Part shown: positions 5,068 to 49,325 of the stretch, in pieces
Layout: every line of letters starts with the position of its first letter
Numbering within the stretch: position 1 is the stretch's first letter
Virus record (IMG/VR): IMGVR_UViG_3300022750_000003
Span: 1 to 49,621 of that record
Strand: one strand, 5' to 3'
DNA from: a virus
DNA length: 49,621 bases
Notes under the pieces: model-generated
Seen by the model: the letters and a program-made list of their open reading frames with translations, nothing else
Database searches by the model: none
What the model was told of the DNA's origin: nothing
Made by a program: the position numbers and the translations under genes

Positions 5068-5423
5068 AACGAAACCCGCTCGTGCAACATCATTGCGTAG
5101 TTACCGACGGACGCGTAGTCGCGCGCCGCGGCGGACCGGGCCAGCAGGTCGTGCAGTTCGTCCACCGGTGCCGATTCCCACCCGTGCTTCCCGTCCACGC
5201 GGCCCTTGGCCATCTTGTCGCGCATGGCGGCGGTGAACCGGGTAATAGCGGCGTCGTCAGCAGTCACCGCGCAGCCGGTGGACACCAGGACGGCCTGCAG
5301 GTCGAATCGCAGGAGGTCACCGAGACGGTGGTGGGGGATAGAGCCCTGTGCGGCTAGGCGTTGAACGTGTCGGACGGTTAGGCCCATGATTTCAGCAAGT
5401 TGCTTAGCGTTGATAAAGGTCAC
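5064..5423 (-). CDS. HTH DNA-binding protein, excisionase/MerR-type
   Basis: A GTG start preceded by AGAGGA at eight bases. The N-terminus (AKQLAEIMGLTVRHVQRLA, then GSIPHHRLGDLLRF) is a winged-helix HTH of the excisionase/MerR type. The C-terminal 70 residues are charged and of no known fold. It is directly coupled to the prim-pol, so it may bind the origin and load the replicase, or act as a repressor (inference). Excision itself is unlikely, since no integrase is present. Confidence 0.8.
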   Translation of the reverse strand: MTFINAKQLAEIMGLTVRHVQRLAAQGSIPHHRLGDLLRFDLQAVLVSTGCAVTADDAAITRFTAAMRDKMAKGRVDGKHGWESAPVDELHDLLARSAAARDYASVGNYAMMLHERVSL

Positions 5424-8233: not shown

Positions 8234-8911
8234 TTATTGAGCCAGTTTCGCCAGCTCGGCCATGTCGGAAAAGTGGTAGCGAACAGTCGACCCAGCCACG
8301 CCAATCTCCCGCCCTACCCGGCCACTGGTCAGGCGCACGCCGTCAGCGTGCAGGCGGCGGGCAGCGGCGATAATGGCCTCTCGGCGCTCGGCGCCGGTGA
8401 CAGTGGCCGGCGAGTCGCCCAGCACCGACAGGTCCGGGAAGTACGAGCGCACCAGCACGTCGGAGCAGCCGCAGGCCTTGGCCAGGTTCTGGTGGGTCAG
8501 GCCGGTGAACCCCATGTCCAGGGCGGCGGCCCGGATCTGCGCGCGGCGCTCGTCGCCCGTCTTTCGGGTACCTACGAACCCCCGGGCTTTAAGCCGGGTC
8601 CACACTGCCGGCATGCGGATTCGCTTCTCTGCCCACTTCTCGGACCGGCCGAAGAACGCCCCGAGGCTCGCATGGGTCACGGCGTCGAAGCCGGAACGCT
8701 GGGCCAGGGTCTCGGCTGCCAGCAGTAGCTGCTCGGCGGAGACGTCTGCAGGTGGCACCACAGCGCCAACCGCGGTGCGCAGCTCCTCGGGAGTGATGAG
8801 GCGGACCAGTTGGTGGCGGGAGATTCCCAGTTTACGCGCTACCGCAGCCTGGGTCGGTCGCTCGCCGACTTGCCGAGCAGCGGCCAGCACCTCGTCGCGG
8901 GTGATCGTCAT
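8234..8911 (-). CDS. Candidate transcription regulator with four tandem TetR-like HTH units
   Basis: A 225-residue protein with four successive helix-turn-helix units at about residues 4-40, 53-102, 117-160 and 172-220. The units are TQAAVARKLGISRHQLVRLI, VTHASLGAFFGRSEKWAEKR, LTHQNLAKACGCSDVLVRSY and LTSGRVGREIGVAGSTVRYH. Units 3 and 4 end in the TetR-like YF/HF signature. No ligand domain follows, unlike normal TetR proteins. The start at 8911 (MTITRDEV) has AGGTG upstream; a longer start would lie inside the -10 box. It is monocistronic, with its own promoter and terminator. Likely the phage's master regulator (inference). Confidence 0.8.
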   Translation of the reverse strand: MTITRDEVLAAARQVGERPTQAAVARKLGISRHQLVRLITPEELRTAVGAVVPPADVSAEQLLLAAETLAQRSGFDAVTHASLGAFFGRSEKWAEKRIRMPAVWTRLKARGFVGTRKTGDERRAQIRAAALDMGFTGLTHQNLAKACGCSDVLVRSYFPDLSVLGDSPATVTGAERREAIIAAARRLHADGVRLTSGRVGREIGVAGSTVRYHFSDMAELAKLAQ

Positions 8912-13609: not shown

Positions 13610-14547
13610 CCGCACAAGCCGTTAAACCGCAAATCCAGGGTGTTGACTTCGAAGTAACCGGCATCGGCCGCATCGTACAGGGTGACCTCGAAACCTTGAG
13701 CAACCTGGACTATCAAACCGGCAAGCCTCGCACGAACGCCGACGGGTCCGAAAAGAAACCGGAGAACTTCTACTCCGTCGCGTTCCCGAAGCTTATCAAC
13801 GGCCAGCCTAACCAGGACTGGGCCCGGGTGCAGGCGTACTTGAACAACATTGCCCGCCGTGACTGGCCTACCTTCTACCCGAACGGTTCGCAGCAGTGCG
13901 TTAACCCGAACTTTCATTTTAAGGTTACCGACGGCGACGGCTACGACAAACAAGGGGTCCACAACGCTACGAAAGAAGGTTTCGCCGGACACTGGGTTCT
14001 CCGCTTTTCGAGCCAGTTCCTGCCAAAGCGTTTCTACCAGGGCCAGACCCGCGCAGACCAGGAGATTACGCAGTCGGGCGCCATTAAACGTGGTGACCAC
14101 GTTCGCGTCCTGTTCACCTGCGCGGGTAACGGTTCCACTCAAAGCCCCGGTCTGTTCGTTCGCAGCTCCGCGGTAGAGCTGTACTTTGTCGGTAACGCCA
14201 TCGTATCCGCCGGTACGGGTCCGGATGCGGCTACTGGCCTCAGCTCTGGCCCCGCCCAGCACTACGTGCCCGAAGGTGCAACGGCGGCCCAGGCTCCGGC
14301 AAACGCCATGGGGCAGGAACAAGTGCAGCAGGCTCCGGCCGTCCAACCTCAGCAGCAGCAGCAGCAGCAGCAGCAGCCGGCGAACTACACCGGTTACATT
14401 CCTCCGGTCGAAGTCCCTGTAGTCCCAGGCGTGCCGGTGGCACCAGTGTTCCCTCCGGCGGGCTGGCAGGTCCACCCTCAGAACGCGGCCTACTACCACA
14501 ACGGGGTCGAGTGCATTACCGAGGCAGAGCTGCGAGCTCGGGGCTAA
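13606..14547 (+). CDS. DUF2815-like ssDNA-binding protein with polyglutamine linker
   Basis: A 313-residue protein. Residues 1-190 form a beta-rich domain (EVTGIGRIVQGDLETLSNLD ... VLFTCAGNG) matching phage ssDNA-binding proteins paired with DUF2800 nucleases. A flexible linker has a run of ten Gln encoded by nearly pure CAG repeats (about 14350-14376), then Pro/Val repeats. A C-terminal Trp/Tyr segment (WQVHPQNAAYYHNG) may dock partners. Such proteins coat ssDNA in replication and recombination. A hairpin terminator follows the stop. Confidence 0.83.
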   Translation: MTAQAVKPQIQGVDFEVTGIGRIVQGDLETLSNLDYQTGKPRTNADGSEKKPENFYSVAFPKLINGQPNQDWARVQAYLNNIARRDWPTFYPNGSQQCVNPNFHFKVTDGDGYDKQGVHNATKEGFAGHWVLRFSSQFLPKRFYQGQTRADQEITQSGAIKRGDHVRVLFTCAGNGSTQSPGLFVRSSAVELYFVGNAIVSAGTGPDAATGLSSGPAQHYVPEGATAAQAPANAMGQEQVQQAPAVQPQQQQQQQQQPANYTGYIPPVEVPVVPGVPVAPVFPPAGWQVHPQNAAYYHNGVECITEAELRARG

Positions 14548-19902: not shown

Positions 19903-21975
19903 TCATGGCTCTTGGTGGAAAATTATTCCCTTAGAGCTGACCGTGTTGATAGGGACGTTGAACGGGGCCGCCCCGGGGATACCCCCTACGAACTTGACTA
20001 TACCTCCGTCTTCGACCTCGACAGCCCAGTTTACAGCGCCCGTGCAGTTAGCGCCCGTCGCCACTACGTCGCCTCCCCGACAGGTGATAGCCCGGGATCC
20101 GGCGTTCTGCAGGTTCGCCTCCTGGACGTTAGCCCGTCCGCCGTCAATGGCAGAGCAGGCCCGGTCGGTACACCCGGAGATGTTAGCGCCCCGTGCTGAA
20201 ATTTCCCCGCCGTCCCGCGGTTCAATTCCTCGAGCGCACCCGGATAGGTTGCCGGCGGACACGTCGATCTTGCCCCCTTTATAGGCCAGGGCGCCGGCTA
20301 CTGAGCATCCGATGGCGATTACGTCCTCTGCCGAGATACCGCCAGGGCCGCCGAAAGCCTCTAGGCCGATCTTGGATCCGCTCACGTTGGCGCGGACCGC
20401 CGAGATAATTGCCCCGTTTTGCGACCAAACGCCACGGTTAGTGCAGGACTGGGCTACCCCGTCGATGAAACTGATAGTAGAGGTGTCGGAGGCTGAGATA
20501 CCTGCAGACCCGGTGCAGAAGCTGGCGTTAAGTTCCGAGGCTTCTACGTGGGAGTTGCCGCTGCTAAGCACACCGTACTCGGAGCAATACATGGCACCAT
20601 CACCGATCCAGATCATGGTCGGCCCCGTAATGCGCGAGCGGGCGTTGATACGGGCGTCATGGAGAGCGTGGAACGCACGTTTGGAGTGAGAGCCGTTAGA
20701 CTCCCGGCAGTTGAGGTTCGAGCCGTCCCGGCAAAGGAAAGCCGTCCCGTTTATCGCGTAACTGGCGTTCGACTGGTAGAGGTCGGCACGGCTATTCCAG
20801 ATAATGTAAACCCCCACGTCACCCTGGCTTTGGCTAAAGTCGCTTCGCCCCAACGCGGCGTCGGACCCGTAGGCTACGTGCAGGCCTCGCAGGCGGCAGT
20901 TCCGGAACCGAGCACCTACTGCAGTTCCAGCTCCGGTGCCATCGCCCCCTTGAGTCAGGCCGCGCGGGTAGCAATGCCCCTCTGACTTGTAGAAAATCAG
21001 GAACCCGCGCCGGCAGTTATCAATGCCGCAGGACGGCATTAGGGCCGACTTAGACCCGCCCATGACCGCAACCCCGTCCTTGGCGGTCAGGTTGCTAGCG
21101 TAGTGGAACTGGCAGCCCAGTACTGGCAGTACGCTGCCGTTGTCCGCCCCGAACGCGGGGATAGAGTCGTCGGCAACGCTCAGGTAGGTAGTGACATAGT
21201 CCGGGTCGATCAGTACCGAGGCGTCCGCCGAAGTTATCCGGATCCATCCGAGGTCATGCCCGCTCAGGATCAGCACCTGCTCACGCACCACGAACCCAGG
21301 TAAAAGGTGCACTTTGCACATTCCAGCCCCGTTAGTGTAGGTCGGGCGCATCCGTACTGCCGCCTCTAAGGCTGCAAGGATGGTGGAGAACTGACCGCCA
21401 GCCCCTACGGTAAGGGTAAACGCCGTGGGGTTGTTCAAGAAGAATTTAGACGGGTCTGAAACTACTGCAGATTCCGCCTCTGCTTGGCTGGAGTAGTCGC
21501 CGGGGCCGATAATTTCTCGGATTTTTTCCTGCAGCGTTCTGCTAAGCGCACCAGGGCCGGACGGGATGAAGCGAACGAGCGAGGACCCGGGTGGTGCGGC
21601 CAGCTCCTGCCGAAGCATAGCGTCACCGATAGGGTTGAAAAATGCCTCGTCAATAGCCCAGTTTTCGACGGTGGTGTACGGGAGCTCGAGAGTCGGCTTG
21701 GCAATCCAAAACTCACCGTCCTTGGAAAAAACCTGGTTGGGGAGGGATATGGTCAGCGGGCCGCTATCGTAGTCCCCGATCCTGGAGTAGCCGATACCTC
21801 GAATAGCTTCGTCAATCTCGAACTGCTGCCCGACCAGGGTTAGGATTTTTCGGCCCACCCTGTTTTCAGCCCAGGGGAGGGGAGAGGTGCACACCTCGTC
21901 AAAGGTTGAGGCGTTGTCGGAAAGGTCCTTGGGGCTGTTAGACCCCACCGGGTTCATCGTTCTGAATACGATCAT
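19903..21975 (-). CDS. Tail fibre/receptor-binding protein with beta-helix
   Basis: A 690-residue protein. The N-terminal ~100 residues (FRTMNPVGSNSPKDLSDN, LTLVGQQFEIDEAIRG) share a layout with the start of the other fibre and are the likely virion anchor. From about residue 190 to the end there are many short Gly/Asn/Cys-rich strands such as CRGGDVVATGAN and IDGGRANVQEAN, the pattern of a right-handed parallel beta-helix. Such domains bind or degrade surface polysaccharide. The end of the gene abuts the lysis genes. No S74 chaperone is present. Confidence 0.85.
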   Translation of the reverse strand: MIVFRTMNPVGSNSPKDLSDNASTFDEVCTSPLPWAENRVGRKILTLVGQQFEIDEAIRGIGYSRIGDYDSGPLTISLPNQVFSKDGEFWIAKPTLELPYTTVENWAIDEAFFNPIGDAMLRQELAAPPGSSLVRFIPSGPGALSRTLQEKIREIIGPGDYSSQAEAESAVVSDPSKFFLNNPTAFTLTVGAGGQFSTILAALEAAVRMRPTYTNGAGMCKVHLLPGFVVREQVLILSGHDLGWIRITSADASVLIDPDYVTTYLSVADDSIPAFGADNGSVLPVLGCQFHYASNLTAKDGVAVMGGSKSALMPSCGIDNCRRGFLIFYKSEGHCYPRGLTQGGDGTGAGTAVGARFRNCRLRGLHVAYGSDAALGRSDFSQSQGDVGVYIIWNSRADLYQSNASYAINGTAFLCRDGSNLNCRESNGSHSKRAFHALHDARINARSRITGPTMIWIGDGAMYCSEYGVLSSGNSHVEASELNASFCTGSAGISASDTSTISFIDGVAQSCTNRGVWSQNGAIISAVRANVSGSKIGLEAFGGPGGISAEDVIAIGCSVAGALAYKGGKIDVSAGNLSGCARGIEPRDGGEISARGANISGCTDRACSAIDGGRANVQEANLQNAGSRAITCRGGDVVATGANCTGAVNWAVEVEDGGIVKFVGGIPGAAPFNVPINTVSSKGIIFHQEP

Positions 21976-21995
21976 AGGGGGTTACTCGGTTGATA

Positions 21996-22020
21996 CAAAA
22001 AGCCCCGATTTCTCGGGGCG
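21996..22020 (-). terminator. Rho-independent terminator between the two fibre genes
   Basis: Minus-strand stem CCCCGA/TCGGGG with a GAAA loop, then CTTTTTG. No promoter fits in the 20 bases before the next gene, so the fibre and lysis genes downstream must rely on read-through or antitermination. Confidence 0.85.
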
Positions 22021-22034
22021 TCTTTTGGTTACTG

Positions 22035-22217
22035 TCAGCGCTTCCGAGGTGCTTTCGGAGCTGCCGGCTGAGGCTCAGGGGCGGGCTTCGGTTGAGGCTC
22101 CGGTACTGGCTGCAAGTTCTCGAGCCCCCGGAGCATAGCCGCGACCTCTCGGTACGTTCGGGCGGACAGGTAGTCGGCGATGGCTTGGGCGAGCTCTTGG
22201 CTAATCACGAACTGCAT
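22035..22217 (-). CDS. Small tail-associated protein, 60 aa
   Basis: The start was set at MQFVISQELAQAIADYL with GAGGG upstream. A helical first half (YREVAAMLRGLENLQP) is followed by a Pro/Lys-rich tail with EPQPKPAPEPQPAAPKAP repeats. Small proteins of this form sit beside fibre genes in several phages; it may be a fibre chaperone or a virion component (inference). It is followed by a terminator. Confidence 0.7.
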   Translation of the reverse strand: MQFVISQELAQAIADYLSARTYREVAAMLRGLENLQPVPEPQPKPAPEPQPAAPKAPRKR

Positions 22218-22228
22218 GTAGGTATCCC

Positions 22229-24508
22229 TCAATTTTTCAGCAAAGGTTGATTATGCGTCGCCGCTTCTTCAAGGGCAAGCACTCGGGCTACCAGCTCCTC
22301 GATGGTACGCCCCATAGGCAGGATGAACTCGGCGTGCTGCTGCTGGACTGCACGCGCCAAGGGTGCCACAAATTCGTCATAGCCCAGGGACAGGACGTCA
22401 CAGCCCCCATGTACCGAGTGGTCCTGGAACCCGCCGAAGTCCATACCCTGCTCGCGCAAAGCGTAGAAGTCCTGAGCACGGAACCCATGGTGGAACCGGG
22501 TACGCGCCTTGCTGCCGTCCCGCTCCCGGACTACCGCTACTTCCTCCCCGGTCTCCCCGTCCAGTTCCCACTCTATGTAGTCATCGCGCATGTCCCAGCG
22601 ATAGTCCACGGGCTCCAGTGCCAGGATAAAGTCGAGTCCGAGAGTGATACCGCGAATGTCTGTTTTGTCGCGCACGTCCGAACGGTTCTGCACGGTACCG
22701 TAGACATACGTGGTGGTGCTGCTATTTCCTATCTGAGCCTGGTTGTCCCCGGACACCCGAGAGTCCGCGCCGATACCGATGGTGTTTGTCATAGTCGTAG
22801 CAGACGAACCATCCTGCATAGTCCGAAGCGCGCTGCGGCCCAGGGCCGTTATGCCAGAGCCCCCGACCAGGGCGCCTGCGGCAAACTCTCCGACCGCAGT
22901 GTTCTGGCCGCCGGTGGCGAACCGGAGTGCCGAGTAACCGACGCCGGTGCACTGGGTGCTGGAGGTCAGAGCATTAAGGCATAGCGACCCTACGCCGGTG
23001 TTGCTATCCGACGCGCAGTTAGCCAGGGACGAGCTACCGACAGCGGTGTTGTTGTTGCCCCGGGGCGCCTGGCCCATGGAGTTGTTACCGACAGCGGTGT
23101 TGTTGGAGTTTGCCGCAACCGGGGTGTTGGTGTAGTACTCCAGTCGGGTGCAGGTGCCTGACCTCGTCGCGCTGTCGGGAGCTGCGGCCGTCCAGGTGTT
23201 CGCATTTATAACCGTCGCTACGGTCCAGTACTGGGCGTCCGGGGTATTCGGTGCTCCGGTGACTGTCAGCTTTACCCGAAACCCGGGCAGCAGTCCGTGC
23301 GCCGTCATAGAGACCGTTATTTCGGAGTCAACCTGGGCCCAGGTTCCGGCAAGGCTGGACTCGATGCTTTCGAAGCCGTCCGGGGAGGTACCTACTTCAA
23401 GGCGCCCGAGCGAGAAGTAGCCAACGGAAACGTTTCCGTTACCGATCTTGATTAGACTCGCCGAGTTTGCCCCTACAGCAGTGTTAGAAATGCCGTTAGA
23501 GTAGTCCAGCGCGGACATGCCAATAGCCGTCTGGAGGCCAGCAGTCCGGGGGAACGGGTTTACAATAACCCCGGAAATATCCAGTGGCCCCGCACCCGCA
23601 CCCGCACCCGATCCTATAAAGACATTACCGACTGCGGTAGTACCGACCTGGTCCGCGTTTCTGCCAATGGCAATACTCCGGTTCCCGGAGGTGTTGAATC
23701 GCTTGGCGTTATCTCCAATTGCCACAATTCGGGTGGCGTCGAATGGGTCCACCGGGGCGTTTATGCCGGTGAAGTACATCGCCTCCAGGCCAATTGCAAT
23801 GTTGTAGTGCCCGTACTTGTTGGAGTACATAGCCCGCGGCCCCACCGCGGTGCAGTTGTACAGGTCATTACCCGCCAGCCCCATCGCGTTAGTGCCGAAC
23901 GCCGTGAGGTTATACCCTCGGCCGGAACCCGCAGGGTCAGCGTAGCTAAGGTCCGTAAGGGCCGAGGCTACCGCTCTGCCTACAAGCGTGTTGCTATTGC
24001 CAACCCGCACCGCTGCGGTGTAAGCCGAGCCAACTACCAGGCCGTCAGAGGATCTTTTAAAGGAGCCGTTAAAATACCGGTTGCCGATAGGAAATGCCGT
24101 AACCAGGTACGTTTTCCCCAGCAAGTCGATGGGCTTTCCGGTGTGAGTTCCTTCGAGGCTGGAGAACTTGGCAGAGTCGTTAGTAACCCCGTCCCCTACC
24201 GCGCCGTAGTCCTCCGGCGTTACTAGTTCGCGAAGCTTACCCAGCACCTTGCGCGCAGTGGCCCCGGAACCCACTTGAATAAAGCCGACCCGGTCAGACC
24301 CCTCGGGGGCCAGGAGCTGCTCGCGCAGGCCAGCTACCTCGACGGCAGCCGCGGTCAAGCCGGCTAGGGTGTACACCGGCGCCCCGAAGCGGTTTAGCGA
24401 AGTGGGGTTTAGGCTATTTGCGAACTCGTCCAGGTGAAACGAGTTGTCGTACAAATCCCTCGGGTCCGTAGACCCGATGGGGTTCATGGTGTTGAATAGC
24501 GTGGTCAT
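22229..24508 (-). CDS. Tail fibre with S74 intramolecular chaperone
   Basis: A 759-residue protein. The N-terminal ~100 residues parallel the anchor of the other fibre (FNTMNPIGSTDPRDLYDN). EDYGAVGDGVTNDS begins a pectin-lyase-like segment. A long central region of NTAVG repeats (GNNNTAVGSSSLANC, GQNTAVGEFAAGAL) is of the YadA-head type. The C-terminal ~150 residues are a peptidase S74 chaperone (RSDVRDKTDIRGI with the cleavage Ser and Lys, then ALEPVDYRWD) that trimerises the fibre and removes itself. The start overlaps the upstream stop (ATGA). It is a second receptor-binding protein. Confidence 0.9.
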   Translation of the reverse strand: MTTLFNTMNPIGSTDPRDLYDNSFHLDEFANSLNPTSLNRFGAPVYTLAGLTAAAVEVAGLREQLLAPEGSDRVGFIQVGSGATARKVLGKLRELVTPEDYGAVGDGVTNDSAKFSSLEGTHTGKPIDLLGKTYLVTAFPIGNRYFNGSFKRSSDGLVVGSAYTAAVRVGNSNTLVGRAVASALTDLSYADPAGSGRGYNLTAFGTNAMGLAGNDLYNCTAVGPRAMYSNKYGHYNIAIGLEAMYFTGINAPVDPFDATRIVAIGDNAKRFNTSGNRSIAIGRNADQVGTTAVGNVFIGSGAGAGAGPLDISGVIVNPFPRTAGLQTAIGMSALDYSNGISNTAVGANSASLIKIGNGNVSVGYFSLGRLEVGTSPDGFESIESSLAGTWAQVDSEITVSMTAHGLLPGFRVKLTVTGAPNTPDAQYWTVATVINANTWTAAAPDSATRSGTCTRLEYYTNTPVAANSNNTAVGNNSMGQAPRGNNNTAVGSSSLANCASDSNTGVGSLCLNALTSSTQCTGVGYSALRFATGGQNTAVGEFAAGALVGGSGITALGRSALRTMQDGSSATTMTNTIGIGADSRVSGDNQAQIGNSSTTTYVYGTVQNRSDVRDKTDIRGITLGLDFILALEPVDYRWDMRDDYIEWELDGETGEEVAVVRERDGSKARTRFHHGFRAQDFYALREQGMDFGGFQDHSVHGGCDVLSLGYDEFVAPLARAVQQQHAEFILPMGRTIEELVARVLALEEAATHNQPLLKN

Positions 24509-34014: not shown

Positions 34015-34419
34015 CTATCTCCGGTTGTAGCAGGCCACGCCTACTCGGGAAAAATACTTTTTAGTCACGGTTGGATCCGCCGGTAGGAAGTCGCCAAGGC
34101 AGTTGGCAGGGTCGAACGCGCCGAGAGCAGCTAGGGCGCCTTTCCACATATCTGACAGGGTGGCCTGGTTGAACGAGCGGCTAGCGCCGTTCGGAGCTGT
34201 CTGCGAGGTGATGAACCGAGAGAAGCTGCCCAGCGCTATCAGGTAGGCCAGGTACAGGCACAGCACCGTTTGCACCGCCGGGGTGTAGCCGTTCGCGTCG
34301 AAACACTCCTGCAGCGCTGGGTTGTTCGCAAGTTCTACGATGGCGTCGACCATGAGCGGGTCCAGGGTCACGCCTTGAGTTGCCAGGAAGGCGTTTAGCT
34401 GTTCGGCGGTGATCGCCAT
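34015..34419 (-). CDS. Neck adaptor protein, first gene of the tail operon
   Basis: A 134-residue helical protein (QLNAFLATQGVTLDPLMVD, VQTVLCLYLAYLIAL, ATLSDMWKGALAALG) resembling head-tail adaptors that bind the portal, such as HK97 gp6 and SPP1 gp15. It is the first gene after the 34435-34640 element on this strand, so that element likely contains its promoter. GAGGTGG precedes the start. Confidence 0.78.
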   Translation of the reverse strand: MAITAEQLNAFLATQGVTLDPLMVDAIVELANNPALQECFDANGYTPAVQTVLCLYLAYLIALGSFSRFITSQTAPNGASRSFNQATLSDMWKGALAALGAFDPANCLGDFLPADPTVTKKYFSRVGVACYNRR

Positions 34420-34434
34420 GTTCCACCTCGTGGG

Positions 34435-34640
34435 TAGGGATGTAGGGATAGATAGGGATGATACTACCGCTCCCGTGGTGGGGCTATGGGCCCGTATCCC
34501 TCTATATGTATTATTCTACCTTTACTCTTAAGAAGTATCTCTACATACCTTCCAGACATACACGTCGGCCAGTGTTTCCGGGGTTGCCGCAGGGGTGGAC
34601 ATGCTGGGCGTCGTCTCTACCGGATCCCTTCCTATCCCTA
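34435..34640. repeat. AT-rich intergenic element A (related to element B)
   Basis: A noncoding stretch between the divergent neck gene and the small plus-strand cassette. It shares with 48815-49025, in the same order and orientation, the words TAGGGATAGAT (34443), ATATGTATT (34504), CAGACA (34553), CCGGGG (34578), GGGGTGG (34592) and ACCGGATCCCT (34619). It begins with three TAGGGAT repeats and ends with the inverted ATCCCTA. An AT-rich core of about 55 bases stands out in this GC-rich genome. It may be an origin, a packaging or recombination site or a late promoter region; no coding frame is credible. Confidence 0.75.
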
Positions 34641-34669
34641 TTGACAGGGCGGAAAGGCGAGCGCATTAT
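34641..34669 (+). promoter_or_regulatory. Promoter P6 of the small-gene cassette
   Basis: Plus strand: TTGACA, a 17-base spacer ending GCGAGCG, CATTAT followed by GCGTCTAC. A GCGCA-TTA-TGCG dyad covers the -10. The -35 directly follows the last ATCCCTA of element A. Confidence 0.85.
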
Positions 34670-38019: not shown

Positions 38020-38919
38020 ATCGACAGCCTCCTGGGTAGTTGGGGAAACTTCTTGCAGGTCAAAGTTTAACGCGCCACGGTTGAAAACGCTATTAGCGAA
38101 AATCTGCCACTGGGCTTTACGTACTGCGGCTTTTACCTCATCACTCAGCACCGCCACCGCGCCGACGAACGAGTAGTCCACCGCGTTGTACCGTTGGGCC
38201 GGGGTAGGGCCGCCCTCGCGCTGCTCCAGTTCGAACACTGCGGTGGCGTCGGTGAAGTCTGCCAGCCACGCGTGGAACATCGGCCAGCGGGCCATGCCAG
38301 CAGCACGCAGCACCTCGTGTTTCTCCTGGCTGGTCATGCCTTCGAGAGTGCCGGTGTCGACGTTCACGAACAGGCCCACGCCCTGGTCGATACCGGCGGC
38401 CGGGGCTTCGCCGATTAGGATAGCGTCGTGGTCGATTTCCAGGTACTCCGCGCGGCCCTTGTACGGCAGGCCCTCGGCCACCGGATGGACGCGCAGCCAC
38501 ACTGCTACCGACGTGCTAATAGGCTGTTCGGCCTCGATAGCCGCAATCACCTCGGGCCCGCGCTCGGTTGCGTTGGCGTACAGAACGTCAATCCACTTTT
38601 CAACGTGCACGCGGCCGTCGTCGCCCAGGGTAACGTTACGATTGAACGCGCCGACATGGTTTGCGTGGATGGCCGTAGGGCTGCCAGCGCTGATCCAGTT
38701 ACCGTTTGCGTCTTTAGGGTGCCCCAAGGGCGCCAACTTGTTGTTTAGCTGCATGAACGTACGGGCCGTTTCCTCGGCCGGGTACAAGATGTCGTTCATC
38801 ACGATATTAGGCGGGAGCGTGGAGCTCGGGACGATAATGTAGTCCCGGCCGTCTACCGTTTCCCGGCGGATCTTGCTGTTATCGACCGCCGTAAAGGCGT
38901 TTACGCGTAGCTCCCGCAT
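37681..38919 (-). CDS. Prohead protease fused to scaffold (DUF2213)
   Basis: A 412-residue protein. The N-terminal ~200 residues are a DUF2213 prohead protease (RDYIIVPSSTLPPNIVMNDI, APLGHPKDANG with the likely catalytic His, ISTSVAVWLRV with Ser). The last ~110 residues form an acidic helical scaffold domain. It cleaves the scaffold and matures the prohead, then is removed. An internal start for the scaffold alone lies within. It is the first gene of the capsid operon, divergent from the portal gene. Confidence 0.88.
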   Translation of the reverse strand: MRELRVNAFTAVDNSKIRRETVDGRDYIIVPSSTLPPNIVMNDILYPAEETARTFMQLNNKLAPLGHPKDANGNWISAGSPTAIHANHVGAFNRNVTLGDDGRVHVEKWIDVLYANATERGPEVIAAIEAEQPISTSVAVWLRVHPVAEGLPYKGRAEYLEIDHDAILIGEAPAAGIDQGVGLFVNVDTGTLEGMTSQEKHEVLRAAGMARWPMFHAWLADFTDATAVFELEQREGGPTPAQRYNAVDYSFVGAVAVLSDEVKAAVRKAQWQIFANSVFNRGALNFDLQEVSPTTQEAVDMTPEQIKELREGIGADLKVNAVAAVTEGLDPVLKRLEALENQVGKGEAAETEALRTEVATHVGAEAAAELSVNALKATLAKFKPATDVQTGTLATNRSTSGAREFKPTAMPE

Positions 38920-38977
38920 GTCGGGGCCTCCAATGGGTTAAACTGCGCCAATCATAACGCAAACCGGAGCTTTACGC

Positions 38978-40243
38978 ATGGCGACCCCTGACGAACGCGC
39001 ACGCGCGGGAATGGTCCGCACCATGGGTCTGGACAACAAACGTCCGGACGCCTGGGCAGAATATGGCTATAAGGAAAAACTCGGCTTCCGGGACTTCTAC
39101 GACCTGTACACCCGGCACGGCGTGGCCGCTGGCGTGGTGGACCGGGTAGCCGAGAAGGTTTTCCAGACCGCCCCGTGGGTTATCCAGGGGCCGAAAGAGT
39201 CCGAGAAGAAACCCACCTCCCCGTGGGAAAAGGACTTTCAGACCCTCGCCGAGGACGTCGACCTGTGGTGGTATTTCAAAGAGGCCTATGCCATGCGCAT
39301 GGTGGGGGCCTGGTCCGGCCTTATCCTCAAGTTTGCCAACGACGACGGCGCGCTATCCGACGAGGTCAAAGCTAACGCTATCCTGCAGGACCTGGTGCCA
39401 GTATGGCGAGGCCAATTGCAGCCAGCTAAGCGGGACTCTATGGGCAACGTCACCCTGTGGAACTACACGCCGACCGGCTTCGACGCGACCGACCTGCAGA
39501 ACGACCCGCCCACCGCCCTGCACCCGTCCCGCCTTTACATTGTCGGCGACTACAAGCGCGGCCGATCCAAGCTCGAGTCCGGGTACAACGCTTTCGTAGA
39601 TATGGAGAAGGTTACCGGCGGCTCCGGCGAGGGCTACCTAAAGAACGCCGCGCGCCAGTTGCATATCAACTACGAGTCGGACGCGGTGCCGACTAAGCCG
39701 AACCAGCCGGACGACGAGGTGGCCGAGGACTTGAACGACCAGGTCAAGGCGCTGAACACCCGTAACGACCTGATGCTGGCCACCCAGGGTGCCACCGTAA
39801 CCCCCATCGTCGCGACCGTTCCGGACCCTGAAAAGCCGTTCAACGTATCGCTGCAGGTGGCCATGGCCTCGTGGCGAACCGCCGCGCGCCTGGTGGTCGG
39901 CAGTCAGACCGGCGAGCGCGCCAGTGTCGAGGATATCCGCGACTTTAACGAACGGTGCCAGGGCGACCGCGAGGGCGAAGTGTCCCGGGAGATTCGCGGT
40001 TTCGTGCGCCACCTGGAGGACGTGCAGGCCATCAAACCTGCCGGCAAGATTACGATTATGTGGGACGACCTGGCCGAGCCGACCAACACGGACCGCGCAG
40101 AACTTGCGCTCAAGATGGCGCAAACCAACCAGGCCAACGCCATTACCGGCGACGTGGTGTACACCCCGGACCAGATCCAGGTGGCCGCAGGCTTCGAAGC
40201 AGAGGACGCCGGAAAGCTCGGTGAAGACGGCCCGGAGGCTTAG
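38978..40243 (+). CDS. Portal protein (DUF1073 family)
   Basis: A 421-residue portal protein beginning with a GGAG site. It shows family features: LGFRDFYDLYTRHGVAAGVVD near the N-terminus, PSRLYIVGDYKRGRSKLES, then MEKVTGGSGEGYLKNAA and VGSQTGERASVEDIRDFNER, with an acidic C-terminal helix. The dodecameric ring threads DNA into the capsid. Unlike the other head genes it lies on the plus strand, with MuF downstream. I noted only a -10 box (TAAACT before GCGCC, about 38944) upstream. Confidence 0.88.
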   Translation: MATPDERARAGMVRTMGLDNKRPDAWAEYGYKEKLGFRDFYDLYTRHGVAAGVVDRVAEKVFQTAPWVIQGPKESEKKPTSPWEKDFQTLAEDVDLWWYFKEAYAMRMVGAWSGLILKFANDDGALSDEVKANAILQDLVPVWRGQLQPAKRDSMGNVTLWNYTPTGFDATDLQNDPPTALHPSRLYIVGDYKRGRSKLESGYNAFVDMEKVTGGSGEGYLKNAARQLHINYESDAVPTKPNQPDDEVAEDLNDQVKALNTRNDLMLATQGATVTPIVATVPDPEKPFNVSLQVAMASWRTAARLVVGSQTGERASVEDIRDFNERCQGDREGEVSREIRGFVRHLEDVQAIKPAGKITIMWDDLAEPTNTDRAELALKMAQTNQANAITGDVVYTPDQIQVAAGFEAEDAGKLGEDGPEA

Positions 40244-41112
40244 GAGTCGGTTTGAATGAAAGTGAGAATGGCGGGGTTAGCTTTTAGCCACTCGGTTGCC
40301 CCGTCAAACTTGCATAAGCCGGCACTTTCAAAAGTATCGTGCACTAACTTCTCTAGTTGTAAGGCTTTGAACCCATTTAACCTAACGACCTTTTCGAGCG
40401 TAAAGTAAAAAGGAGTCTGGAGGTGTAATTTCTGCATGCGCCTTTTAATACTCCCGCTTATGCCTACCTTTATGTAGCCGTTGCAGTCGCTCTTTAGTAC
40501 ATAGAGTGCTGCCCTCTTGTGAGGCTTAAACCCGCCGAAAGCGCAGCTAGGGCATCCGCACTTTTGCCTAACAAAAGCGTCAATACTTGTCTCATACTCT
40601 CCGTGTTGCGGGCATTTAAGTTTAAGTCGGGACCCTGTACGGGATAGAACTTGGACGCCGGTTTCAGCCTGCCGTTCAGTCAACCTACGCGAGACCTCTG
40701 TAGCCGGCAGCCTTAGCGCCTCATGCCAACAGGCGAGGCAGCCCGTGCCACCAGTTACTAGATGCTTTAGGCTTTTCTCTAAAGGCCCGTGAGCTATGCA
40801 AGTTAATAGCAGCCGGCTAGGCGTTAGCCACTTCTCAATCCGAAGGCCGGTCGAAGCTGCAGCCCTTCGGGCTCTTACCACGTTTTGAGCGGTTGACCAT
40901 TTAGGGTTGGCGGAACAGCCACACGGGATGACCCCTCGGTTTAACTTTGTAACTTTCCCTACGATATTTCCAGGGGGCCATAGTTCCGAGTCCTGAGAAC
41001 AAACAGAGCATTCTAATGAAAAAACCCTATGGCCGTTTCGGTCCGGAAGTAGCGAAACTGCTCTAATAAAACTTTTAGGAGTTGGCCAGATATAGCCTAC
41101 GTTAATTCGCAC
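40240..41112 (-). CDS. GIY-YIG homing-type endonuclease
   Basis: A 290-residue protein, visibly lower in GC than its neighbours. The N-terminal 190 residues contain zinc-finger-like cysteine groups (CSVCSQD, IPCGCSANPKWS, GGTGCLACWHE, KCGCPSCAFGG) that could bind DNA. The C-terminal nuclease is ALYVLKSDCNGYIKVGISG then SIKRRMQKLH, with a late Glu (KLVHDTFE), a GIY-YIG pattern. It sits between portal and MuF on the opposite strand and overlaps the portal stop by four bases. Composition and place point to a recently acquired mobile gene. Confidence 0.85.
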   Translation of the reverse strand: MRINVGYIWPTPKSFIRAVSLLPDRNGHRVFSLECSVCSQDSELWPPGNIVGKVTKLNRGVIPCGCSANPKWSTAQNVVRARRAAASTGLRIEKWLTPSRLLLTCIAHGPLEKSLKHLVTGGTGCLACWHEALRLPATEVSRRLTERQAETGVQVLSRTGSRLKLKCPQHGEYETSIDAFVRQKCGCPSCAFGGFKPHKRAALYVLKSDCNGYIKVGISGSIKRRMQKLHLQTPFYFTLEKVVRLNGFKALQLEKLVHDTFESAGLCKFDGATEWLKANPAILTFIQTDS

Positions 41113-45705: not shown

Positions 45706-45930
45706 CTATGCGCTCACTATAGGGCCTCCTTCTGAGTCTGTCAACACTCCCGACGAACGGTCACTGTCCGGCCCTACCAAGGCTATACGCGTCTGCTCCG
45801 GATCGCGCCAGTCTGCGGTCGGCCCGGTGGCTGCGATGTACTCCACGGCTACGCGCCGGGCGCAGGTCCGGCAGGCGGCCCGCACTGTCAGCACGCGGGA
45901 CCCGTTCGTTACTGTGAAAATGGCCATCAT
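45706..45930 (-). CDS. Small phage protein, 74 aa
   Basis: The start overlaps the terminase stop (ATGATG). The N-terminal part (MAIFTVTNGSRVLTVRAA) and a CxxC pair in CRTCARRVAVEYIAATG resemble a family of short phage proteins with one helix and a strand. The C-terminal coding part contains promoter P9. Function is unknown. Confidence 0.68.
   Translation of the reverse strand: MMAIFTVTNGSRVLTVRAACRTCARRVAVEYIAATGPTADWRDPEQTRIALVGPDSDRSSGVLTDSEGGPIVSA
45716..45744 (-). promoter_or_regulatory. Strong sigma-70 promoter P9
   Basis: Minus strand: TTGACA, exactly 17 bases, TATAGT (five of six consensus), then GAGCGCAT. It drives the methyltransferase-like gene at 45683 and lies inside the end of the preceding gene. 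Confidence 0.9.
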
Positions 45931-47561
45931 GCTGCCCTCTTGCGTTTGAATACTCGGGACACCGGCGGCGCTACCTGGGACTGCAGCGCGTAGAGCATCA
46001 TCACCATGTCCGCCAGGTTAGGGGACTTCGTGCCGTCCGGCGCTTTGTCCACCAGGACCTTGCCGCGGCTGGTCTTCTTGTAGACCGGCTGGCTCAGTTC
46101 GGCGCACAGCTTGTCCCGCAGCGGGATGGTCGGGGAAATGCTAATCAGGTCGTCCAGGTTGTACTCGCCGCCCTCGGTGACTGCCACGTAGGTAAGGCGG
46201 AACCGCTCGCGCAGCGCCCACCAGCACTGCGCCTTGTAGTTATCGAAAAACTCCCCGTTCGTGCGGCCTGGGTGATACTGGCCCGAGTCGTCCCAGTAGC
46301 CCTTGATAAACTCCTGGTCCTTGTCAACCACCGCCCCGCCGCCGTTGAACCCGTCCACCTCGATCTGCGACGAGCGCCCCTCGTTCAACGCTCGCGCATC
46401 CCCGCGCACGCCGGCGCCCATGCCGTCCGAGTCGAACCGAAGGAAATGCGTCTGCCAGCGCTCGCAGTTCTCGAAAGCGCGAATCGTCGTGCCGTAGATA
46501 TCCTCTGTGGTTTTCCCGCGCCACTCGTCCACGTCAGTCAGAACCAGGCCGTCGCGAAGGCCCTGTGCGCACGTATCCTTGCCTTTGTCGGCCACGTCCA
46601 GGGCTGAGGACTTCTCGCCCCGCATATCGACGCCCAGCTTCTCTGCGGCCCCTATCGCAGCCTGTACCCAGGTCGTCGGAATCAACACGCCGTCGATACT
46701 GGCTGAGAAATTAATGTCGATTTCCTGCGCCACGGTCACCGGATCCAGCAAGCGGCATTGCTTCTCGTACCAGGCGTCGTCCTTGCGCGGGTCGTCCCGC
46801 CAGTGAAACCGGAACGTGTCGAACTTGCCGGACGTGGCTTTCTCCGCGAACGGGTTGTTCGGGCCGTTGGGCGTTGATATGTCAATCCGGCAGTTGGTCG
46901 TCTGCGAGAGGGACGCCTCGACGAGCTGGGGGCGCTCCAGGAACGCTGCCTCGTCCACAAAGTAGATCGACGCCCGGTCACCCCGGCCGATACCGTCGCC
47001 AGCCTCACCAATGATCGCAGAGCCGGTCGTGGGGAACATCAGGCGCATATGCGGGGCGGACGTGGCCAGCGAGAACCCGCCGCGCAGCTCAGGCGGCAGG
47101 AGCGAGACGAACATCCGCCCCTTGTGGAACAGGGATTTCGGGCTGCCGATCTTGTCCACGTACTCCTCTTTCCGGGAGCCGAACCCCAGGACCAGGTCGT
47201 CGTGGGTGATCGCCAGGCAGCTTGCCGTTGCCATGGTCAGCCAGGACAGGCCCATGTCCCGGGATTTCACCGTGGGCGCGGGCTCCTGGTCTTTCCAGTG
47301 CCGCATGCACCAGTCCACCCACTCCTCCTGCCGCGGGAACAGGATAAACGGGATGATGGGGGGCAGGCCGCGCTCGGCGTTCCGCGGGTCGAACGTGCAG
47401 CCCCAGTCGGTAATCATCTGCGCGGGGTTGTCGCGGTAGTAGGTCAGCAGCCCGGGCAGCGCCGCCGGGTTCTTGCGCAGGCGCTCCAGGCGCTCGGCCC
47501 GCCAGGCGAACACCTCCGGATAGTCCGGGCGCTTGAAGTCGAACGGAAACGGGATAGGCAT
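45927..47561 (-). CDS. terL: Terminase large subunit
   Basis: A 544-residue packaging motor. ATPase: Walker A-like TVKSRDMGLSW (97-107), Walker B IYFVDEAAF (199-207), then coupling-motif-like IDISTPNG. Nuclease: LDVADKGKDTCAQGL starting at D322, further acidic residues at TDVDEW and near DNYKAQCWW. The C-terminal Lys/Arg tail (VFKRKRAA) may bind portal or DNA. The ATG shares one base with the terS stop. It cuts concatemers and pumps DNA through the portal. Confidence 0.93.
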   Translation of the reverse strand: MPIPFPFDFKRPDYPEVFAWRAERLERLRKNPAALPGLLTYYRDNPAQMITDWGCTFDPRNAERGLPPIIPFILFPRQEEWVDWCMRHWKDQEPAPTVKSRDMGLSWLTMATASCLAITHDDLVLGFGSRKEEYVDKIGSPKSLFHKGRMFVSLLPPELRGGFSLATSAPHMRLMFPTTGSAIIGEAGDGIGRGDRASIYFVDEAAFLERPQLVEASLSQTTNCRIDISTPNGPNNPFAEKATSGKFDTFRFHWRDDPRKDDAWYEKQCRLLDPVTVAQEIDINFSASIDGVLIPTTWVQAAIGAAEKLGVDMRGEKSSALDVADKGKDTCAQGLRDGLVLTDVDEWRGKTTEDIYGTTIRAFENCERWQTHFLRFDSDGMGAGVRGDARALNEGRSSQIEVDGFNGGGAVVDKDQEFIKGYWDDSGQYHPGRTNGEFFDNYKAQCWWALRERFRLTYVAVTEGGEYNLDDLISISPTIPLRDKLCAELSQPVYKKTSRGKVLVDKAPDGTKSPNLADMVMMLYALQSQVAPPVSRVFKRKRAA

Positions 47562-48175
47562 TAGGACTCTCGGCTCATGAGGTCCTGGTAGGCCCGGGCG
47601 GCCTCCTGCGGGGTCATCGTAGCGTCAGGCTTAGCCGTAACGGTCGCCTGGATTTTCTGCGGTGCCTCCCAGCCTTTCAGTTTTGCCAGGAGCTGCAGTG
47701 CGCCCCGGCGGTCGTGGGTTTTTACCTTGATGCCGTCTTTCCCGGCGGACAGCTCGGCGATCATCCCCATTTTCTCCGGGTCCTGCTCTACCGAGTCCTT
47801 AATCCGCCAGCCCGTCTGCCACTCCGTCACCTCTCCGGTTTCCATGCTCGAGGCGATAGGGTAGCGCGCCCATTCCACCAGGTCGGACAGGTTCGTGCGC
47901 GCCATAGCGGTTAGCAGTGCCTCCGCCTCCTCTTTTTCCATAATCGCGCTACGGACTGCCTGCACCTGCATTGCTGCCAGAAACGCGGCCGGCTTAACGG
48001 CGGCTAACATGCGGCTAGCAGCGGCGTCGGCCACGGCTGCGGTGCACGGTCGGCCCGCTGCGGCCTTTGCGGCCATGTAGGCCTCCCGTTGCGCCATACC
48101 GCCAGCCACGCGAGTGCAGACGGCGCGCTGCAGCGGCGTTAGTGCTTCTAGGAGAGCGATCTGCTCGGGAGTCAT
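47561..48175 (-). CDS. terS: Terminase small subunit
   Basis: A 204-residue protein; the start MTPEQIALLEALTPLQRA has AGGAAA upstream and overlaps the HNH stop by ATGA. The N-terminal HTH-like half (TPLQRAVCTRVAGGMAQREA) fits Terminase_2-type small subunits, followed by an oligomerisation helix (AAFLAAMQVQAVRSAIME) and a C-terminal tail for the large subunit. It would recognise the packaging site, possibly in element B just upstream. Confidence 0.87.
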   Translation of the reverse strand: MTPEQIALLEALTPLQRAVCTRVAGGMAQREAYMAAKAAAGRPCTAAVADAAASRMLAAVKPAAFLAAMQVQAVRSAIMEKEEAEALLTAMARTNLSDLVEWARYPIASSMETGEVTEWQTGWRIKDSVEQDPEKMGMIAELSAGKDGIKVKTHDRRGALQLLAKLKGWEAPQKIQATVTAKPDATMTPQEAARAYQDLMSRES

Positions 48176-48660
48176 TGTGCGGTTTCCTTCTGTGATGCCA
48201 GCCATTCTACCTGCGCGGCCAGTAGCAGGCGCAAATCCCTAGCCAGTTCCGGGGTTTCCACTACGGGCGTGCGGTGTCTTTTCCCCCCAAAGTAGATACT
48301 GCCCTGATACCCGCGGTGCTTTCCGGTGCGCTGGCACCGCATGACGCAGACTCCCGGGAATTTCCCCTCGTGAAACTTCTGTTTTGTTTTCTCGGGCTTC
48401 TTTTCGGCCGCAGGGTCGTAAAGGTTGTCCGGACGATTGTTTCCCGGGTCGCGGTCGCGGTGCCGGACGTGCGCGGGGAGGTATCCGAAGTGCATCAGGA
48501 AGCAGATGCGGGCGTAGTTCTGCATTTTGCCCTTTACGCCCACGACCAGTGTTTTGCTGCCTGGGTAAACCGGAGTCCCCGGGACGAGCTTACGCCCCCG
48601 GTACAGTCGGCCGGTTTTCGGGCAGTAGCGGAAAAGCGCGTTTAGTAGAAAAAGGTCCAT
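48172..48660 (-). CDS. HNH endonuclease with AP2-like DNA-binding domain
   Basis: A 162-residue protein. The HNH_3-type core spans YARICFLMHFGYLPAHVRHR and DRDPGNNRPDNL (residues about 48-80). The C-terminal part (FPGVCVMRCQRTGKHRGYQ, GSIYFGGKRHRTPVVETPEL) is like the AP2/ERF fold that recognises DNA in phage homing nucleases. It is first in the terminase operon. HNH proteins next to terminase in cos phages assist in end cleavage, so either a packaging role or homing is possible. Confidence 0.86.
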   Translation of the reverse strand: MDLFLLNALFRYCPKTGRLYRGRKLVPGTPVYPGSKTLVVGVKGKMQNYARICFLMHFGYLPAHVRHRDRDPGNNRPDNLYDPAAEKKPEKTKQKFHEGKFPGVCVMRCQRTGKHRGYQGSIYFGGKRHRTPVVETPELARDLRLLLAAQVEWLASQKETAQ

Positions 48661-48688
48661 GTTTAGGCCTGGTAGAGATACTCGGGCC

Positions 48689-48717
48689 AGTGTACACGGG
48701 GGTTTGCTGAGTGTCTA
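48689..48717 (-). promoter_or_regulatory. Promoter P10 of the terminase operon
   Basis: Minus strand: TAGACA, 17-base spacer, TACACT followed by GGCCCGAG. It drives HNH, terS and terL. The -35 differs by one base from the consensus; the GC-rich discriminator is present though its sequence differs from the others. Confidence 0.72.
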
Positions 48718-48814
48718 CGGGGGAGAACCGAAAGGGCTAAAGGGATATCTCGAACATCCCTCCCGCCAGTAACTGCGCGGCTTTGAGGCTATGTCTAGCT
48801 GACATGGGTGGAGA
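48718..48814. other. Noncoding gap next to element B
   Basis: No gene is seen between promoter P10 and element B. With element B it makes about 300 noncoding bases upstream of the terminase operon. Confidence 0.6.
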
Positions 48815-49025
48815 TAGGGATAGATTTTTCCTCGTCCCGCCGTGGCGGTGGGCCATGGTGCTGTAGCCCTACTCTCTTATATGTATTCTATTATATAAAG
48901 ATTATTATTAATTACTATTATACTATTCAGACAACGGTAAAACCCAACGTGGTATTGGTCGAAACCGGGGTGGCGATGCCGGGCTTTCATAGCTCCCTAT
49001 CGCCACCCTAGACACCGGATCCCTA
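48815..49025. repeat. AT-rich intergenic element B (related to element A)
   Basis: A noncoding stretch upstream of the terminase operon. It shares six words in order with 34435-34640: TAGGGATAGAT (48815), ATATGTATT (48879), CAGACA (48928, the same 49-base offset as in A), CCGGGG (48965), GGGGTGG (48967) and ACCGGATCCCT (49014). A pure A/T core runs from about 48879 to 48925. It also holds the palindrome CCCGCC-GT-GGCGG (48837-48849) and an inverted repeat with 10-bp arms at 48968-48977/48999-49008. Candidate cos/pac region or origin. Confidence 0.75.
48968..49008 (-). other. 10-bp inverted repeat in element B
   Basis: GGGTGGCGAT and ATCGCCACCC are separated by 21 bases. It follows the 49023 gene on the minus strand and may act as a weak terminator, though no T-tract follows; it could equally be a protein-binding dyad or a packaging feature. 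Confidence 0.55.
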
Positions 49026-49325
49026 CCTCATCTCCACCCCTCGAACCAGCGCCGGAGAAAACCAGCCTCTGCGCCGCGCGATAACCGCCATTTCAAACCG
49101 TACGCCGGCGATTTCTACCGGTTCTCCAGTTTCCCAGCTTTCGCGCAGTGCTGCCTCGTCCTCTCTGCTCGCCTCCACGATCACATAGCGCGGACGGGGT
49201 TGGCGGGAATTCCCGTCCGCCCGGCTAGGCTTGCACTGCTCGTGCGGGGCGCACGCGTCGAAAAATACAGCCTCCGGAATGCTGCGGGCCTTATCGGACG
49301 TGAACCAGAAACGCAGGACGCTCAT
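49023..49325 (-). CDS. Unknown small protein, 100 aa
   Basis: The start MSVLRFWFTSDKARSIP overlaps the preceding stop as ATGA; a longer frame was rejected. Beta-rich, with segments YVIVEASREDEAALRE and VEIAGVRFEMAVIARRRG, and a Cys pair (FDACAPHEQC). It is the last gene of the left-arm operon before element B. Function is unknown. Confidence 0.72.
   Translation of the reverse strand: MSVLRFWFTSDKARSIPEAVFFDACAPHEQCKPSRADGNSRQPRPRYVIVEASREDEAALRESWETGEPVEIAGVRFEMAVIARRRGWFSPALVRGVEMR

Follow-up and report, generated by a model that had tools for sequence, protein, structure and literature searches.

Two related AT-rich word islands at operon heads of a phage genome and their possible role as promoter-operator elements

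Satellite phage P4 carries ori and crr, two cis elements with iterons that are read by the alpha primase-helicase. In activator-dependent late promoters of phages, protein sites directly precede a −10-like AT core and a consensus −35 is missing, and centromere-like systems have arrays of heterospecific words flanking a core. By analogy, the nearest described logic to the locus analysed here would be that of the stoperators of Cluster A mycobacteriophages, whose consensus varies from phage to phage, as does the specificity of the repressor (PMC6550527). One Cluster A repressor binds DNA in monomeric form and has two DNA-binding domains (PMC9283540).

The present locus comprises two intergenic islands, A and B, in a DNA stretch of 49,621 nt (IMG/VR record IMGVR_UViG_3300022750_000003, positions 1 to 49,621; GC 61.5%), hereafter the window. 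Of the functions offered in the original prediction, late promoters bound by one regulator gave the best fit to the comparative evidence. We tentatively put just short of an even chance on A and B being two copies of one multi-operator promoter island read by a tandem-HTH phage protein. No description of these islands was found in the open-access literature searched.

Islands A and B and the operons beside them

Island A (34420–34660, no strand) lay between the start of the tail operon (34419, minus strand) and a divergent plus-strand promoter, and was delimited by alignment with B and by synteny in relatives. Island B (48672–49037, no strand), which has equivalents in relatives, showed word copies at 48672, 48756, 48808, 48814, 48865, 49019, and 49030 around an AT-rich core (48866–48935). 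Both islands were outside gene-like ORFs, directly upstream of a minus-strand operon, and contained the most AT-rich 60-mers of the window genome, as the original prediction of AT-rich noncoding islands had stated. TAGGGATAGAT, ACCGGATCCCT, and TATATGTATT were common to A and B in the same order and orientation, and the two words claimed to be exactly 49 bases apart in both were identified as ATATGT and CAGACA (34504 and 34553 in A, 48879 and 48928 in B). The local A–B alignment score was 40, compared with 18.8 ± 2.6 for dinucleotide shuffles (maximum 28; 0/500 reached 40), and the global alignment gave a z of about 6. A and B are related beyond chance, and the claimed homology held against shuffles of the same composition.

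The tandem triple array of A (34434–34459, plus strand) consisted of GTAGGGAT, GTAGGGAT, and ATAGGGAT. Inside the AT-rich core of A (34498–34545, minus strand), defined by alignment of 22 island cores, the word GTAGAGAT was followed by ACTTCTTAAG and then by the promoter-like TAGAAT/TATAGA towards the gene at 34419. The right-hand words (34613–34641, minus strand), with copies at 34613, 34624, and 34634, adjoined the −35 of the divergent promoter. Three direct TAGGGAT copies and one inverted copy had been predicted for A and were present (34435, 34443, and 34453; inverted at 34634), but the prediction had overlooked an extra inverted GTAGAGAT at 34537, in the centre of A and in its best conserved part among relatives. 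From the copies in the window, the island motif is better given as GTAGRGAT(G) than as TAGGGAT; all exact copies of GTAGRGAT in this genome (5/5) were within A and B.

In the control element, around ten words flanked the AT-rich core in opposite orientations. The order towards the late operon was word-word, ACTTCTTAAG or a similar sequence, an AT-rich stretch with −10-like hexamers, and inverted words in the leader; the pattern of word-word, ACTTCTTAAG, and AT-rich stretch was visible in most of the 22 aligned islands. In A and B alike, the core was at the operon head and faced the operon behind it in the correct orientation. A consensus scan of the minus strand of the core detected no −10/−35 pair; −10-like sequences were seen in the 22-island alignment, with no unique −10 hexamer.

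The triple array of A was about 15 nt from the tail-operon ATG, in the putative 5′ leader. Such a position would suit words that act in RNA, with tandem copies in late leaders serving as antitermination or translation-control sites. This reading is very improbable, as the other copies are upstream of the core and inverted, and so would fall outside the transcript, and an Rfam scan returned only one tRNA.

Island A formed the head of the tail operon, of which the first gene (34015–34419, minus strand) belonged to phrog_786, a family that gives no known function. Island B formed the head of an operon with genes for an HNH endonuclease (48172–48660), the terminase small subunit TerS (47561–48205), and the large subunit TerL (45927–47561), all on the minus strand; TerL was homologous to an annotated phage terminase and to many IMG/VR contigs. 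The divergent promoter beside A (34641–34669, plus strand) was of sigma-70 type, TTGACA-17-CATTAT, and serves the genes from 34699 onward. At its site TTGAC[AG]-N17 was conserved in 8/8 genomes tested, including four without island A. An exact-pattern scan of IMG/VR for this promoter gave no match. The MCP and portal operons had no words.

Two other features of the structural region were observed. At 38919–38978 of the window, the portal operon on the plus strand diverged from the minus-strand MCP operon, and the same arrangement was seen in phage TPWB-08 and probably in Pseudomonas phage MR14. Another HNH endonuclease gene (40240–41112, minus strand; phrog_681, GC about 54%) was located between the portal and head-morphogenesis genes. 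These two genes are adjacent in TPWB-08, and the relative G001 likewise lacks the gap; this gene is therefore probably a homing insertion.

Islands and words in close and distant relatives

The original prediction depended on the islands being present in close relatives. Among those covering the site, window included, A was found in 6/6 and B in 8/8. Island A occupied the syntenic site in TPWB-08 (PQ358087, L002; around 66–80% identity to the window in conserved blocks), G001, L084, G006, and G008, and equivalents of B were present in TPWB-08, G001, L004, G005, G006, G007, and G008. The A-site island of TPWB-08 (20100–20310) had three perfect GGTAGAGATG, and its B-site island was at 34080–34440. 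In both TPWB-08 and G001, three GGTAGAGATG with a period of 9 stood at the position of the triple array, and GATCCC..ATCCCTATTGACAG or an equivalent represented the right-hand words. The most constant pieces of A among relatives were GAAGTATCTCTACAT and CTATTGACAG. Around the core, the likeness of A to B within a lineage was about that of A to A between the TPWB/G001 and G006/G008 lineages, a similarity that hints at joint evolution of A and B within a lineage. Exact words were inside the islands in 11/11 cases for G001, 4/4 for G008, and 9/12 for TPWB-08; words were degenerate in window B and in G006, whose islands hold 0 exact copies.

A scan for three tandem GTAGRGAT gave ten stretches, one of them in the known relative G001; the remaining nine were simple repeats or repeats in coding sequence, from contigs that seem to be unrelated. 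Scans of genome_contigs with the MCP and the four-HTH protein described below as queries gave no relative, and a viral_contigs search with the phrog_786 protein gave none by that method. The pattern scan also returned genes for short cysteine-repeat proteins of NCSDC/NCRDC type (L104, 7246–7271; L105, 2403–2428). MR14 was rejected as an island carrier, its matching gap having two tandem CAACCTGAG and no ten-copy array.

Seven distant genomes (G009–G015; prim-pol 43–51% to the window in the best segment, MCP 37–39%) and contig L175 kept only B. The distant-clade island occupied the B position behind the prim-pol operon, following a terminator-like hairpin that ends this operon, and had the layout of the window islands. 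In 6/7 genomes no other 300 bp was as dense in repeats. Its words, of 8–9 bp, were GCTGAGTAT, TGCGACAT, GCAGGRGAT, GCCGAGTAT, GCAGGGGAT, and GCATAGGAT (the same in G011 and G012, with some GCAGGGGAT); L175 showed by eye the same core with the word GACAGGGAT. The site consensus thus varies among related phages, with at least six different words in the group. Distant islands usually had 7–10 exact word copies and none outside the island (G009 9/9, G010 10/10, G011 9/9, G012 7/7, G013 3/3, G014 10/10, and G015 9/9), where chance would give 0.2–0.8 copies of a 9-bp word per genome. The G013 words were degenerate, with 3 exact copies and 9 allowing at most one mismatch. The words were chosen from the islands themselves, which makes their binomial values descriptive, and their confinement (e.g., 10/10 with 0.36 expected genome-wide) is unaffected by that choice.

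G014 and G015 were 89% identical in the polymerase and 87% in the prim-pol; their islands were collinear, and the words were exchanged at nearly every position. A spacer unit like CTACAGGCCACGTA-N-GGGCTCCAG was seen twice in direct orientation flanking the core, with the words inverted, in G014 (21940–22290), G015 (14030–14380), and G009 (47500–47860). One control element is at the same place in all sequenced relatives and its word set changes jointly between lines; the joint change probably matches a phage-encoded DNA-reading protein.

At the A site, the gene start and the −35 were 199–221 bp apart in the window clade versus 50–65 bp in the distant genomes tested, the latter (G009, G010, G013, and G015) having the divergent promoter TTGACG-N17 alone. 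The longer gap indicates gain or, less simply, loss of an element of about 150 bp at the A site. B would then be ancestral, and A a later copy placed in the gap that separates the divergent promoter from the tail operon. A recent mobile insertion was not supported, the same site being occupied in all close relatives.

The terminase differed among the otherwise syntenic G009–G015, and a homologue of the window TerL was detectable in G011 only. The original prediction had also offered packaging sites, which would be pac or cos sites bound by TerS or the HNH protein, and B does immediately precede the HNH gene, with terS about 0.6 kb downstream of the island. We regard this as hardly credible, because the island was kept in 6/7 distant genomes, where no homologue of the window TerL could be detected, and a second copy is present 14 kb away in the tail-operon leader. 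TerS is likewise disfavoured as the island binder, the island persisting without a recognisable homologue of the window terminase.

Candidate readers and function of the islands

That every exact word of a distant-clade genome is found at a single locus, an arrangement commoner among origins, counts against a promoter-operator island and for an iteron-type replication origin, in which a word-bound initiator would open the AT-rich core and A would be a second cis element as in P4. Also in keeping with an origin are the several short repeats next to AT-rich DNA and, in the distant clade, the position of B right after the prim-pol gene; word switching would resemble plasmid iteron specificity. 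The replication origin named in the original prediction is the main rival reading, though a rather unlikely one. Detrended cumulative GC skew in 12 genomes was near a maximum around B, not the minimum looked for, although gene orientation confounds this measure, and no skew sign change occurred across B. A DnaA-box-like site was present in one island (n = 1) and in none of the others. The prim-pol with its C-terminal ATPase-like region (2449–5067, minus strand; Pfam Prim-Pol and PriCT_2) had been suggested as island binder; a search with its profile gave no solved structure at E ≤ 0.01. Its C-terminal segment NPQRLGWFLRDMKGRALNGRKF was identical in G014 and G015 despite their different words, a single comparison that disfavours the prim-pol as reader; other initiators are possible. 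The HTH_17 protein beside it (5064–5423, minus strand) is a second alternative reader.

The best candidate reader, absent from the binders of the original prediction, is predicted to be a 225-aa protein with four tandem HTH modules (8234–8911, minus strand), which matched Pfam TetR_N (E 6.5e-8) and, more weakly, other HTH families. Its AlphaFold2 model showed 16 helices in four repeats (pLDDT 78), and Foldseek gave no convincing PDB match for it. Orthologues (74–78%) were confined to the close clade. Near the same endonuclease gene as the four-HTH gene, G009–G015 encode a two-HTH protein of about 175 aa, with TetR_N in 6/6 scanned and a model pLDDT of 88; its best structural matches were TetR structures, though weak. 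Recognition helix 3 of the first HTH was among the most variable stretches of the two-HTH proteins and was the same in G011 and G012, which have a common word. This variation and the TetR matches argue for a tandem-HTH reader. Against it, the candidacy comes from synteny and helix variation, and presence follows phylogeny as a confounder. Alignment of the four-HTH with the two-HTH type was barely possible (hhalign probability 7.5%), so their presumed equivalence relies on synteny and module type. The word similarities predict a protein in which G009 is closer to G014 than G014 is to G015; a search of 22 alignments gave no clear winner. In MR14 (L173, 37066–38587), gp52 appears to have one TetR_N-like HTH and gp54, by eye, three tandem HTH-like segments; tandem-HTH proteins may thus be wider in this group.

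The promoter-operator reading is preferred for the location and orientation of the islands and their transcription-factor-like candidate reader. The words, GTAGRGAT in the window, would be bound by the 8234–8911 protein, or by its two-HTH counterpart in the distant clade, and the bound reader would switch the tail operon (A) and the HNH–terminase operon (B) on or off. The outermost words at A, adjoining the −35, might also control the divergent promoter. Homology, synteny, word confinement, the joint word change, and the longer gap with A are read directly from sequence; the promoter role of the core, the choice of reader, and the sign of control are inferred. Operon-head position, a core facing the operon, confined words, and the pattern recurring in most of 22 islands speak for this reading, together with the contact of the A words with a conserved sigma-70 promoter and the occurrence in both clades of a multi-HTH gene close to the same endonuclease gene. 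The lack of an assignable −10/−35 pair in the core, the wordless MCP and portal operons, and the degenerate words of window B and G006 speak against it.

A more specific proposal, which we hold to be rather unlikely, is a heterospecific control locus of probably lytic phages, in which words are swapped jointly, the reader is a modular tandem-HTH protein (two or four modules) that recognises tandem words, and the first recognition helix sets the word. If true, nature would here provide an operator system with code switching. At least six matched pairs of operator word and reader would be available in a conserved setting, which offers a way to study the joint specificity change of ten sites and their reader, and the sharing of one short site by tandem HTH modules. 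The islands are also an annotation landmark for a largely uncultured phage group.

Comparison with known systems

Stoperators share with the islands many short asymmetric sites and a consensus that differs among related phages (PMC6550527, PMC9283540). They are 13 bp long, genome-wide, and mostly in one orientation, whereas the islands have words of 8–9 bp in one or two clusters of 200–400 bp and in both orientations; stoperator dispersal is not seen here, exact words being confined to islands in nearly all genomes. No lysogeny genes were found among the proteins scanned. The flanking arrays and word heterospecificity resemble stoperator systems (PMC6550527, PMC9283540) and also centromeres, and two further readings were considered: partition or centromere-like sites, and operators for immunity in a phage that is temperate or plasmid-like. 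This is improbable, as the proteins scanned (part of the ORFs) included no integrase or partition gene, and stoperators are scattered where the present words are clustered.

A P4-type origin also combines a prim-pol genome with two cis elements that have a common short word and an AT-rich core. It differs in that A and B are at operon heads, skew gave no origin signal, the second element exists in one clade only, and the prim-pol C-terminus stays constant across the G014 and G015 words. The TetR family resembles the two-HTH proteins in the HTH, by TetR_N and structure matches, but has one HTH with a ligand/dimerisation domain, compared with two or four tandem HTH modules in the AlphaFold2 models. 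Activator-dependent late promoters likewise have sites directly before a −10-like AT core without a consensus −35; the islands differ from them in having about ten sites, which flank the core on either side, with words that change jointly.
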